A program made the translations under genes and the position numbers. Shown here one piece after another: positions 1 through 3,667 of a stretch of 32,881 nucleotides of DNA; within the stretch, counting starts at the first letter, position 1, and each line of letters opens with the position of its first letter. Source of the stretch: Burkholderiaceae bacterium (lineage in GTDB: Bacteria > Pseudomonadota > Gammaproteobacteria > Burkholderiales > Burkholderiaceae_B); assembly GCA_017857895.1 (NCBI GenBank), contig JAFMCG010000011.1:1-32881 (forward strand), given 5' to 3'. The notes under the pieces were generated by a model that searched no databases, was not told the origin of the DNA, and saw only the letters and a list, made by a program, of their open reading frames with translations.

Positions 1-177
1 AGCATGATCAAAGATGGTTTTGTGCCGGGTGTGACAGCGCCCATCGGCTATGAAAGCGACATGCCGGCATTTGGGGCGGTATTGACTGATATCCAAATCA
101 AATCCGTTCTGGCGTATATCAAAACTTACTGGCCTGAGGATGCGCTTGGCGCGCAGCGGGAAATATCGTTGCAGTAA
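1..177 (+). CDS. c-type cytochrome, C-terminal fragment (5' end outside window)
   Basis: Frame 1 is open from the first base to a TAA at 175-177, giving 58 residues with no start inside the window. The segment reads like the C-terminal helix of a class I cytochrome c: an MPAFG motif, whose Met is normally the sixth haem-iron ligand, followed by a T-D-x-x-I-x-x-V-L-A-Y-I-K helix and an aromatic Trp. The CXXCH haem-binding site would lie upstream and is not visible. Such proteins are periplasmic or membrane-anchored electron carriers. The gene is convergent with the phosphorylase gene that ends at 265. The family call rests only on the C-terminal motif, so subclass and partner are unknown. Confidence 0.72.
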   Translation, partial: SMIKDGFVPGVTAPIGYESDMPAFGAVLTDIQIKSVLAYIKTYWPEDALGAQREISLQ

Positions 178-264: not shown

Positions 265-1782
265 TTAAATGGATGGCGCTGATGTCGGTTCTATGAATAT
301 GGGTGGATGTGAGTCTAGGTACGCCAACGCATAATTCAGCTCCCCTTGAGCCTCACTGTGCAGAACAAATAAGATCTCACCCGCTGAAACCGAGTCTTGA
401 AGCCTGACTTTCAAGTCCAAACCAGCTGTTTTGGCGTCAGGCGCACCAGAAAGTTTGGCGACTCTGGCCAGACGACGGTTATCGATTGACTTGATAATGC
501 CGTCTTGCGTGGCACGGACAGCGTGCTGAAGCGGCGCCGTTTTAGGTTCGGTAAAGCCACCCTGAGCGTGACAGATCGCTAGGAACTTGTTTAGGGCCCG
601 ACCAGAGTCAATTGCCTCGTTGGCAAAGTCTTCGCCTTCATCGATGCCGACCGATCCACATAACTGCAACAACTCGCCAGCCAGCCTTACGGCTCTTTGC
701 CGCAAGTCTTTGGGTGCACCAGGATCGTTACGAAGAACTTCCAGCACATCTCGAGCCTCAAGTGCCGGCCCAATGCCACGGCCGACAGGCGCATTGCCAT
801 CGGTTCGCACCACTTTTAAGTTTAGTCCGTTGGCAAAACCCACGCGCGTTAAAAGGTGTTCGAGATGGTCAGCCTGTTCTTTGGTGCGAACTTTGGCCGT
901 TGGCCCTACCGGAATATCGATAACAACATGGGTTGCACCAGCGGCAATTTTTTTTGAAAGAACGGAAGCAACCAACTGGGCGTCACTGTCGATTTCAAGT
1001 GGTCTAGCCACTTTAATCAGCAAATCATCGGCTGGGCTGAGTGCTAAAGACCCACCCCACACAAAACAAGCGCCCTCCTTCTTAATGATTTGACGCATGG
1101 CGGCCAAATCGTGCGTAACCGGTGTCACGACTTCCAGAACATCAGCTGAACCGGCTGGTGAAGTGATGGCACGCGAAGACGTTTTGGGCATGATCAAACC
1201 GGCGCATGCCGCAATGGCCACCACGATTGGTGTGGTGCGATTACCGGGCAAGCCACCCACGCAGTGTTTGTCAGCCACTGGCGTCGTTCCCCATTGAAGA
1301 CGCTCACCGACTTCAACCATTGAGGCCGTTAAATCAATGACTTCTTGTAAATTAGCCCGATGGCTGGCCATGGCGGTCACAAAGGCGGCAATCTGAATGT
1401 TGGCATATCGGCCTTTGGCAATATCTGACATGATGGAAGTCAGTTCGTGCTTATTGAGACGATGACCAAAGATTTTTGAGCGCAACTGACTCAATGAATC
1501 AACCGGTGGTGCTTGAATGACAGCAACCGGTTGACCGGGTTTGACGCCAAGATCATGTTGCGCGCTCAGCGACAAACCTATCTCGTTGCAATTGAGCAAG
1601 TCCGAGTGAATCACGTTGACAATTGCCGTGATGTTTTTCTCAGCACACGTTAATTGCACCCGCGTTTGAGCCGCGATGCCTTCTGATTTTGATATGGGGC
1701 AGTCGTGATGCAAAAACGCGACATGCTCTTGCAAGGTGTCAATCCCAAGGGGGCTGTAGATCAGTGACAAGTTAGTTTTCAT
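265..1782 (-). CDS. thymidine/AMP phosphorylase family protein (archaeal-type, 505 aa)
   Basis: The product belongs to the nucleoside phosphorylase family II, which cleaves the N-glycosidic bond of nucleosides, or of nucleoside monophosphates, with phosphate. The phosphate/ribose-binding signature is visible as DKHCVGGLPGNRTT (residues 171-184), followed by KTSSRAITSPAGSADVLEV (200-218). Length is 505 residues against about 440 for E. coli-type DeoA. The extra N-terminal domain of about 90 residues and the GxPGNRTT variant match the archaeal AMP phosphorylase architecture (about 503 residues) better than classical thymidine phosphorylase. The substrate could therefore be a nucleotide (AMP/CMP/UMP giving ribose 1,5-bisphosphate) rather than thymidine; this is inference. 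The gene starts 12 nt after the stop of the upstream beta-CASP nuclease gene, so the two are very likely cotranscribed. The ATG is preceded by only a weak purine stretch. No symbol is given because deoA would imply a substrate. Confidence 0.88.
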   Translation of the reverse strand: MKTNLSLIYSPLGIDTLQEHVAFLHHDCPISKSEGIAAQTRVQLTCAEKNITAIVNVIHSDLLNCNEIGLSLSAQHDLGVKPGQPVAVIQAPPVDSLSQLRSKIFGHRLNKHELTSIMSDIAKGRYANIQIAAFVTAMASHRANLQEVIDLTASMVEVGERLQWGTTPVADKHCVGGLPGNRTTPIVVAIAACAGLIMPKTSSRAITSPAGSADVLEVVTPVTHDLAAMRQIIKKEGACFVWGGSLALSPADDLLIKVARPLEIDSDAQLVASVLSKKIAAGATHVVIDIPVGPTAKVRTKEQADHLEHLLTRVGFANGLNLKVVRTDGNAPVGRGIGPALEARDVLEVLRNDPGAPKDLRQRAVRLAGELLQLCGSVGIDEGEDFANEAIDSGRALNKFLAICHAQGGFTEPKTAPLQHAVRATQDGIIKSIDNRRLARVAKLSGAPDAKTAGLDLKVRLQDSVSAGEILFVLHSEAQGELNYALAYLDSHPPIFIEPTSAPSI

Positions 1783-1794
1783 CGAAAGCGACTC

Positions 1795-3219
1795 TTAAGC
1801 CAGAGGAAACTGTTGCCCAAGCAATGGCACCTGGCAGGGCAACCCGAGTTCATGCGCTACGCGTTGGCGTAACGTATCTGCTGCTGTGGGCTCACCGTGG
1901 TTTAAAAACACCTGTCGCGGACTGCCGCCAGCACTGTCTAGCCAATCCAGTAATTGATCCGCATCGGCGTGAGCGGAAAACCCTTCGATAGAGTGAATTT
2001 CAGCCCTTACTTCGAGATCTTGCCCAAAAACGCGTATGGTTGGTTCGCCGGCCACTAAGCGTGCGCCGCGGGTCCCCGCGGCTTGAAAACCGCCAAAAAC
2101 AATCGCATTTCGATGGTCACTAATAAGTGTGCGCATGTGATGCAAGACGCGACCCCCAGTGGCCATCCCACTGGCTGAAATAATGATGCGTGGGTACTTA
2201 AGCGCATTCAGGGCCTTTGACGCCTCAACCGTGTCAACCAATTGAGCCACCTCGAACACCGCTTTGATTTGTTTGGCGCTCAGCTGATGATCCTCGTGAT
2301 GCTTCTGATAGAGCTTGGTCACATTGACTGCCATTGGGCTGTCTAAAAAAACAGGCAACCTTGGGATTTGTTTAGACTCAATCATGTCATGAATGGCATG
2401 CATCAATACTTGTGCACGTCCTACGGCAAAGGCAGGAATCAAAACCGCTCCACCCCGTTTGACAGTTGCGTTGATAATACTCGCCAACAATGCTTTGGGT
2501 TCCTCAACGCGATGATGACGATCGCCATAAGTGGACTCCATCACCACATAATCGACCGGTCCTAGCGTCTCTGGCGCGCCCAAAATGGGGGCTTGCGCAC
2601 GTCCCAAATCACCAGAAAATACAACCTCTCGTTCGCCCGCATGAACACGTACGAAAGCGGCACCGAGTATATGACTGGCGCGTTGAAGTTTTATTGAGAT
2701 ATCCGGCAAGATATTGTGCCAATCGCCGAAAGATAGGGGTTTGAAAAACTTCACCGTGGCCTCAACATCGGCCACGTCGTATAAAGGTTTGGCTGGGTGA
2801 TGCTTGGTGGTGTTGTGACGATTGGCATAGTTCGCCTCTTCTTGCTGGAGTTTGGCGCTATCGAGCAGTAAAACAATCGCCACGTCAATTGATGCCGCTG
2901 AGGCATAGATGGGCCCGCGAAAGCCTTGTTTGACCAGCAATGGAAGTGCACCGGCGTGATCCAAATGCGCGTGAGTCAGCACGACAGCCGATAACCGCTT
3001 TGGCTCAAACGGTAAGTCAATCCAATTGAGTTGGCGCAAATTTTTGTGGCCTTGAAACAAGCCACAATCAACGAGTAAACGATGACCGTTGTGGGTCAAG
3101 AGTGTTTTTGAGCCAGTCACGGTTCCAGCAGCCCCGAAAAAATCCAAGGTTGCTGGGATTTGGCCTTTGGCCAACGTGGTGGATTTGGAAGAATGAATTG
3201 ATTTGCCAGTCGTGCTCAT
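1795..3219 (-). CDS. MBL-fold beta-CASP RNA-processing exonuclease-like protein
   Basis: A 474-residue metallo-beta-lactamase protein with the beta-CASP insert that defines RNA/DNA-processing nucleases (CPSF73/YSH1 type). Visible motifs in order: HAHLDHAG (83-90), the HxHxDH zinc site; GDLGR (203-207), the Asp of motif 4; ESTYGDRHH (228-236), opening the beta-CASP domain; IPAFAVGRAQ; SGMATGGRVLHH; and EGFSAHADADQL plus LNHGEP near the end, carrying the last zinc-binding His residues. Length is normal for this bacterial subgroup. The predicted role is zinc-dependent cleavage or 5'/3' trimming of RNA in the cytosol. The ATG at 3219 has an AAGGA box 8 nt upstream. The phosphorylase gene follows after 12 nt, which suggests a shared pathway such as RNA breakdown feeding nucleotide salvage. 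The general family is certain; the biological substrate is not known. Confidence 0.9.
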   Translation of the reverse strand: MSTTGKSIHSSKSTTLAKGQIPATLDFFGAAGTVTGSKTLLTHNGHRLLVDCGLFQGHKNLRQLNWIDLPFEPKRLSAVVLTHAHLDHAGALPLLVKQGFRGPIYASAASIDVAIVLLLDSAKLQQEEANYANRHNTTKHHPAKPLYDVADVEATVKFFKPLSFGDWHNILPDISIKLQRASHILGAAFVRVHAGEREVVFSGDLGRAQAPILGAPETLGPVDYVVMESTYGDRHHRVEEPKALLASIINATVKRGGAVLIPAFAVGRAQVLMHAIHDMIESKQIPRLPVFLDSPMAVNVTKLYQKHHEDHQLSAKQIKAVFEVAQLVDTVEASKALNALKYPRIIISASGMATGGRVLHHMRTLISDHRNAIVFGGFQAAGTRGARLVAGEPTIRVFGQDLEVRAEIHSIEGFSAHADADQLLDWLDSAGGSPRQVFLNHGEPTAADTLRQRVAHELGLPCQVPLLGQQFPLA

Positions 3220-3305
3220 TTGCGCATTCCTTTAAAAATAATTGAGTGCGCATCCTAAGCGTTTCAACCATGATTGGCTAGCGACCATGGGTGTTTTTAG
3301 CCAAG

Positions 3306-3321
3306 CAAAATGGCCATTTTG
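3306..3321. promoter_or_regulatory. 16-bp perfect palindrome, probable operator
   Basis: CAAAATGGCCATTTTG is a perfect 16-bp palindrome in the 154-bp region between the divergent beta-CASP gene (start 3219, minus) and the monooxygenase gene (start 3374, plus). It lies just upstream of a good -10 element (TATGAT, 3337-3342), about where the -35 region should be, as expected for a repressor operator. The binding protein is unknown. The rest of the gap holds no gene. A tentative minus-strand promoter pair (TTGAAA at 3267-3262, AATTAT at 3243-3238, 18-nt spacer) faces the nuclease gene, but it would leave a very short leader. Confidence 0.5.
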
Positions 3322-3336
3322 TGCCCCGCTGTGACG

Positions 3337-3342
3337 TATGAT
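3337..3342 (+). promoter_or_regulatory. candidate -10 element for the ABM-domain gene
   Basis: TATGAT differs from the sigma-70 -10 consensus at one position and lies about 32 nt before the chosen start codon. There is no good TTGACA-like -35 at 16-18 nt; that stretch is occupied by the palindrome at 3306-3321. A transcript starting near 3349 would exclude the upstream in-frame ATGs at 3338 and 3341. Confidence 0.4.
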
Positions 3343-3373
3343 GAACACTCAAATTCACGCCAAAGGAGTCATC

Positions 3374-3667
3374 ATGGTGACAGAAATCGCCCACCTCGTC
3401 ATTAAAACTGGGGAAGAATCGGATTTTGAAGCAAAAGTCGCGCTGGCCAAGCCCCATTTTTTAGCGGCCAAAGGTTGCCACGGGGTTCGATTGGTTCGGG
3501 GCATCGAGCATCCCAACCAGTATCAATTGGTCGTTGAGTGGGAGTCGGTTCAAGCCCACATGGTCGATTTCAGGGAGTCTGAAGGCTTCCAGCAATGGCG
3601 TGCATTGGCCAGCCCTCACTTTGCCCAAGCCCCTAAGGTTGAACACGTCGAAAACGTTTCGATTTAA
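3374..3667 (+). CDS. antibiotic biosynthesis monooxygenase (ABM) domain protein
   Basis: A small 97-residue protein with the dimeric ferredoxin-like ABM fold. It shows an N-terminal beta strand (VTEIAHLVIKTG), a long helix with xxFExKxxxAxPHFLxAxG, a central GV-x-L-x-R-G strand, and the typical Y-Q-L-V-V-E-W-E-S followed by an H-x-x-F-R-x-S helix. Family members act as cofactor-free monooxygenases, haem-degrading enzymes or small-aldehyde/quinone detoxifiers; this one cannot be assigned a substrate. The ORF track begins at 3338, but the ATG at 3374 has an AAGGAG box 5 nt upstream and the earlier codons overlap the probable -10 element, so 3374 is preferred. Expression is probably controlled through the palindrome upstream. 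Its TAA shares the sequence TTAA with the stop of the convergent gene at 3664. Confidence 0.8.
   Translation: MVTEIAHLVIKTGEESDFEAKVALAKPHFLAAKGCHGVRLVRGIEHPNQYQLVVEWESVQAHMVDFRESEGFQQWRALASPHFAQAPKVEHVENVSI

Follow-up and report, generated by a model that had tools for sequence, protein, structure and literature searches.

The DNA analysed here, referred to as the window, is a stretch of 32,881 nucleotides from a Burkholderiaceae genome bin that is 89.4% complete. The features that concern us lie near its beginning:

3..176, plus strand: 3' end of a convergent gene, probably for a c-type cytochrome, judging by the position of relatives' ORFs
265..1782, minus strand: phosphorylase of 505 aa from the type-2 'thymidine phosphorylase' family (NF003338/TIGR02645), predicted from profiles, tree and fold model to be an NMP phosphorylase
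1783..1794, minus strand: intergenic gap of 12 nt, of interest for its spacing and the conserved adjacency of its flanking genes
1795..3219, minus strand: beta-CASP metallo-beta-lactamase RNase-type protein of 474 aa, assigned by domains and motifs, with all catalytic motifs intact

The arrangement of two minus-strand genes 12 nt apart, described in a first-pass annotation of this DNA, is confirmed, and the spacing together with the conserved adjacency suggests that the two are probably co-transcribed. The adjacency is kept in all five same-genus genomes that have the long phosphorylase (G301 and G303-G306), which excludes a chance pairing. Directly downstream of the window phosphorylase there is no PRPP-synthase paralogue; the end of the convergent gene is found instead, and cytochrome-c-like ORFs lie downstream of the phosphorylase on the opposite strand in four related loci (L109, L112, L113 and L115).

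The phosphorylase scores 636 bits with NF003338 (cut-off 434), its residues 9-500 aligning with profile positions 5-497, and 564 bits with TIGR02645 (cut-off 434.6). With the DeoA/PyNP models TIGR02643, TIGR02644, NF004490 and NF004747 it reaches at most 194 bits and misses every cut-off widely. The N-terminal extension to which the first-pass annotation had drawn attention is real, as the DeoA/PyNP models start only near residue 100, and the GxPGNRTT loop is present, residues 176-184 reading GGLPGNRTT. In a tree of 80 sequences (47 bacterial long forms, six PhnN fusions, 23 archaeal sequences and four DeoA/PyNP rows), the bacterial clade of long forms and fusions, the window protein included, is sister to the 23 archaeal sequences with a support of 100, and very long branches separate the four DeoA/PyNP rows from both; the protein thus falls outside the thymidine phosphorylases and beside the archaeal AMP phosphorylases, in the outcome of a phylogeny that had been proposed as a check. 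The closest solved structure is the Thermococcus kodakarensis AMP phosphorylase 4ga5 (TK0352). An AF2 model built without template from a 23-row alignment (pLDDT 91), used instead of an unusable single-sequence model (pLDDT 39), superimposes on 4ga5 over its full length with a TM of 0.90 across 498 columns, against 0.67-0.73 for DeoA/PyNP entries; since archaeal rows were present in the alignment, this model is not wholly independent of the archaeal enzymes. Six window residues, K200, T201, S203, W242, D265 and K297, are common to the archaeal AMP phosphorylases, and DeoA/PyNP have other residues there; the T. kodakarensis counterparts of K200, S203, W242, D265 and K297 are K191, S194, W233, D256 and K288. 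By database annotation D256 would be the proton donor and K288 an AMP-binding residue of the Thermococcus enzyme, K191, K288 and D256 having a putative role in AMP binding. The T. kodakarensis enzyme phosphorolyses all natural 5'-mononucleotides (PMC8376864), and the product that the Thermococcus AMP phosphorylase forms from 5'-NMPs is ribose 1,5-bisphosphate (R15P) (PMC9700705). The earlier description of the protein as AMP-phosphorylase-like rather than DeoA-like is therefore upheld by profiles, tree, fold and residues, although not to the extent of membership in the AMP_phos equivalog TIGR03327, where the score of 451 bits lies below the cut-off of 535. We consider it likely that the window protein is an R15P-forming NMP phosphorylase.

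The NCBIfam name of NF003338 is 'thymidine phosphorylase', and taken at its word it would make the enzyme a pyrimidine/thymidine nucleoside phosphorylase that yields ribose-1-phosphate or deoxyribose-1-phosphate, the gene clustering then being a matter of ordinary pentose catabolism. It fits with this that no DeoA/PyNP-level match was found in the window's own genome or in same-genus genomes, and the phosphoketolase-type genes that occur near some relatives would suit a route from R1P through R5P to Xu5P as well. We nevertheless regard it as unlikely. An identity as thymidine phosphorylase (DeoA/PyNP) was rejected on the widely missed cut-offs, the tree, the full-length fold and the diagnostic residues, all of which side with the AMP phosphorylases, and the gene fusion described below, with R15P as the substrate of its kinase part, and the nadC gene upstream of it point to a mononucleotide as the substrate.

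PhnN is a ribose-1,5-bisphosphate kinase, which converts R15P and ATP into PRPP and ADP. A ribose-bisphosphate kinase near homologues of the pair was among the things that the first-pass annotation had suggested looking for, and PhnN is found as a fusion partner: in G305, a member of the window's genus, a second phosphorylase copy is fused to an N-terminal PhnN (170 bits with TIGR02322, cut-off 156; 509 bits with NF003338), and the same fusion occurs in G300, G302, G303, G332 and G249. Because PhnN turns R15P into PRPP, the fusion argues that the phosphorylase family makes R15P. In five loci of the window's family (L117-L121; in G305, L118:7989-10703) a nadC-type gene lies directly upstream of the fusion. 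An amidohydrolase gene is found alongside in these loci, and in several of them a gene for a TRAP-type transporter. The nadC product is a mononucleotide. The nadC beside the fusion is the only one in G303, G305 and G332, and none was found in the nearly complete G299 and G301, same-genus genomes that both lack the fusion. Among the genus members tested, nadC occurs only together with the PhnN-phosphorylase fusion. On the gene content, the simplest reading would be a closed ribose-phosphate loop, in which quinolinate and PRPP would give NaMN, NaMN and phosphate would give nicotinate and R15P, and R15P and ATP would regenerate PRPP; such a loop requires a mononucleotide substrate. The locus is possibly a cassette that decarboxylates quinolinate by means of a recycled ribose phosphate. 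A search of the open-access literature returned no description of the PhnN-phosphorylase fusion or of the module as a pathway, although a prior report elsewhere is possible.

PRPP-synthase paralogues, also proposed as candidates for the neighbourhood of homologues, are found there too. In a survey sample of 299 Pseudomonadota genomes the phosphorylase family exceeds its cut-off in 35, and NF005537, a divergent PRPP-synthase paralogue termed here PRS-prime, does so in 32 of these 35 and in none of the 264 negative genomes (Fisher p = 6e-40, spanning 14 families; the genomes are related, so that the p-value overstates their independence). The three phosphorylase-positive genomes without NF005537 above cut-off are G285, where a PRPP-synthase paralogue adjoins the phosphorylase with a score just under the cut-off, G249, a carrier of the PhnN fusion, and the window genome. 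The paralogue nearly always adjoins the phosphorylase gene. Its best solved relative is the PRPP synthase of M. jannaschii; the ATP-site residues, the KxR loop and the DD..STG ribose-phosphate loop are kept, and the PP-loop SPDxGG is changed to GPDEES. With TP for the phosphorylase, PRS for the PRPP-synthase paralogue, BC for beta-CASP and XK for a phosphoketolase-like gene, the orders observed at 49 non-fusion loci are TP-PRS (16), BC-TP-PRS (8), TP-PRS-BC (6), BC-TP (6), PRS-XK-BC-TP (4), XK-BC-TP (4) and BC-TP-PRS-XK (2), plus single cases; the same genes in several orders are what is expected of a functional module rather than of inherited synteny. In Variovorax sp. WDL1 the genes for the metallo-beta-lactamase (beta-CASP) protein, the phosphorylase and the PRPP-synthase paralogue overlap one another.

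The phosphoketolase-like gene is linked in 11 of the 49 loci (L107:4181-6589, L061, L062, L066, L069, L105, L108, L110, L111, L114 and L116). Its product scores far under the family cut-offs and shares about 22-24% identity with canonical XFP, with the SHQDP motif and further conserved His positions retained. A gene of similar length at the corresponding position in Sulfitobacter dubius is annotated as 'xylulose 5-phosphate 3-epimerase'. The four genomes with the order XK-BC-TP (G307, G312, G333 and G343, with loci L107, L108, L114 and L110, respectively) have neither PRS-prime nor PhnN above cut-off.

The 474-aa protein carries the Lactamase_B, Beta-Casp and RMMBL domains and belongs to the beta-CASP RNases. 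All six catalytic motifs are kept, and the metal and beta-CASP residues are intact in 28 aligned linked homologues as well. Its nearest solved structure is the Thermus thermophilus RNase TTHA0252. Two more specific identities were rejected, aCPSF1/FttA (TIGR03675, 303 bits against a cut-off of 580) and the type VII CRISPR protein Cas14 (NF045584, 368 bits against 800). The two genes are linked in 31 of the 49 loci, and all five same-genus genomes with the long phosphorylase keep the pair, but it is not universal: 18 loci lack the beta-CASP gene, most of them having the PRPP-synthase paralogue instead, so that the nuclease seems to be an optional component. In one locus (L058:6619-7959, on C7 of G259) the beta-CASP homologue matches several frames, which suggests a frameshifted copy or a sequence error; in L059, the second copy of the cluster in the same genome, it lies in a single frame.

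It is plausible, at about even odds, that the beta-CASP nuclease supplies the phosphorylase. Alternatively, the phosphorylase might act on NMPs from other sources and the nuclease serve RNA processing in general, having no more in common with it than regulation under low oxygen or starvation. The 18 loci without beta-CASP would be explained in this way; TTHA0252 and the eukaryotic relatives are processing nucleases, and the Bradyrhizobium operon considered below is part of the wider FixK2 regulon. The linkage in 31 loci, seen in several gene orders and with genes that overlap or almost do so, as in Variovorax WDL1, where the beta-CASP gene overlaps the phosphorylase ORF, speaks for a closer relationship, and we hold the role of a processing factor to be possible but on balance doubtful.

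The first-pass annotation had pointed out that the window contains neither RuBisCO nor R15P isomerase. This is correct, and it extends to the whole bin (89.4% complete), in which neither gene has a match; a route through these enzymes, for which the isomerase had been proposed as a search target, finds no genes there, and as far as the bin shows the two are not involved. The bin has the canonical Prs only, the NF005537 paralogue being found neither there nor in eight other genomes of the genus that were searched, and no PhnN above cut-off was found in the bin at its 89.4% completeness. Within the genus, the PhnN fusion is present in G303 and G305; PhnN stands alone after maf, outside any phn operon, in G301 and G304; G306 has a truncated PhnN match, and G299 has neither phosphorylase nor PhnN. 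Contig C73 of the window bin carries purD and hemF and ends just past hemF, before the nadD-rsfS-rlmH-maf-PhnN stretch of the sister genomes, and a 90-aa Maf probe gave no match in the bin. The absence of PhnN from the bin therefore says nothing, since the contig stops short of the syntenic region; by analogy with G301 and G304, a stand-alone PhnN following maf is the probable sink in the window genome. A separate observation concerns G000:C153:25411-25737, where several short copies, apparently in tandem, of a 50-90-base stretch match part of the sister locus L153.

Some evidence on regulation is available from Bradyrhizobium diazoefficiens, in which bll3117 (phosphorylase), bll3116 (PRPP synthase-like) and bll3115 (metallo-beta-lactamase) are induced in microoxia, with protein log2 fold changes of 2.1, 4.4 and 2.9 and transcript fold changes of 5.1, 7.7 and 15.4, respectively (PMC6515984). 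The three genes are predicted to form one FixK2-dependent operon, whose box lies at -74, and bll2518-2517, encoding phosphoketolase and acetate/propionate kinase, belong to the same FixK2 regulon (PMC9104804). No FNR/FixK box was found upstream of the window pair (3220-3420) or of most related loci checked, for some of which the start sites are approximate; low-oxygen control can thus not be transferred to the window. It may be recorded separately that TTGA-N6-TCAA sites with at most one mismatch number 42 in the window (1-32881), 19.4 being expected and none of 100 shuffles reaching as many.

Our main reading, to which we give a probability of about 0.6, is that the 505-aa NMP phosphorylase and the beta-CASP RNase form a small RNA/nucleotide-recycling unit with lineage-dependent sinks in PRS-prime or PhnN. 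RNA would be degraded by the nuclease in the direction of 5'-NMPs, from which, with phosphate, the phosphorylase would form the free base and R15P; both the substrate and the direction are predictions. R15P would be passed on in relatives by PRS-prime or by PhnN, and in some lineages the phosphoketolase-like enzyme may come next. The favoured scheme is thus the sequence from RNA through NMP to R15P of the first-pass annotation, with PRPP-synthase-like or PhnN sinks in place of RuBisCO. A broader proposal, for which we would claim somewhat less than an even chance, is that Pseudomonadota possess a RuBisCO-free, low-oxygen breakdown of RNA and nucleotides made up of beta-CASP nuclease, NMP phosphorylase, a neofunctionalised PRPP synthase that uses R15P, and a phosphoketolase-type step. 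The GPDEES-bearing synthase would convert R15P and ATP into PRPP and ADP, or R15P and ADP into R5P and ATP, and PhnN would replace it in some lineages. The flux might also run in reverse, R15P and free bases being joined into NMPs for salvage while PRS-prime or PhnN handled the exchange between PRPP and R15P; this appears quite improbable, as operons that also encode a nuclease and phosphoketolase-like enzymes are more in keeping with breakdown.

Archaea, CPR bacteria and the breakdown of phosphonates are the main settings in which R15P metabolism is known. The archaeal AMP/NMP phosphorylase (TK0352, 4ga5; TIGR03327) resembles the window protein in N-terminal domain, fold (the TM of 0.90), sister-clade position and Lys/Asp positions, whereas the latter is bacterial, scores under the TIGR03327 cut-off, has a nuclease partner and comes from a bin without isomerase or RuBisCO. 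DeoA/PyNP belong to the same superfamily and have the same catalytic core, but have neither the N-terminal domain nor the diagnostic residues and lie far off in the tree. PhnN of the C-P lyase pathway has the same kinase domain (TIGR02322 above cut-off) as that fused to the phosphorylase in relatives; unlike it, the PhnN of the relatives is fused, or stands alone after maf outside a phn operon, and R15P would here derive from a nucleotide and not from a phosphonate. TTHA0252, the closest solved relative of the window nuclease, shares the full set of motifs with it, and differs in that the window nuclease is operon-linked to a nucleotide phosphorylase. An AMP pathway with form II/III RuBisCO in CPR bacteria is cited in PMC9700705 and PMC12628685; there, too, an AMP-phosphorylase-type enzyme is used in bacteria, whereas the enzyme described here has no RuBisCO or isomerase beside it and is partnered with a PRPP-synthase paralogue, with PhnN or with a phosphoketolase-like enzyme.

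For a widespread proteobacterial 'thymidine phosphorylase' family, then, tree, fold, PhnN fusion and a near-obligate partner give independent support to the function of an R15P-making NMP phosphorylase, and many annotations of the kind 'thymidine phosphorylase family' would accordingly seem to be mistaken. Direct tests become possible for the function of the PRPP-synthase paralogue and for that of the FixK2-controlled Bradyrhizobium operon. Together, the pair in the window and the presumed R15P-using enzymes of its relatives suggest that bacteria may recycle the ribose of RNA without RuBisCO.
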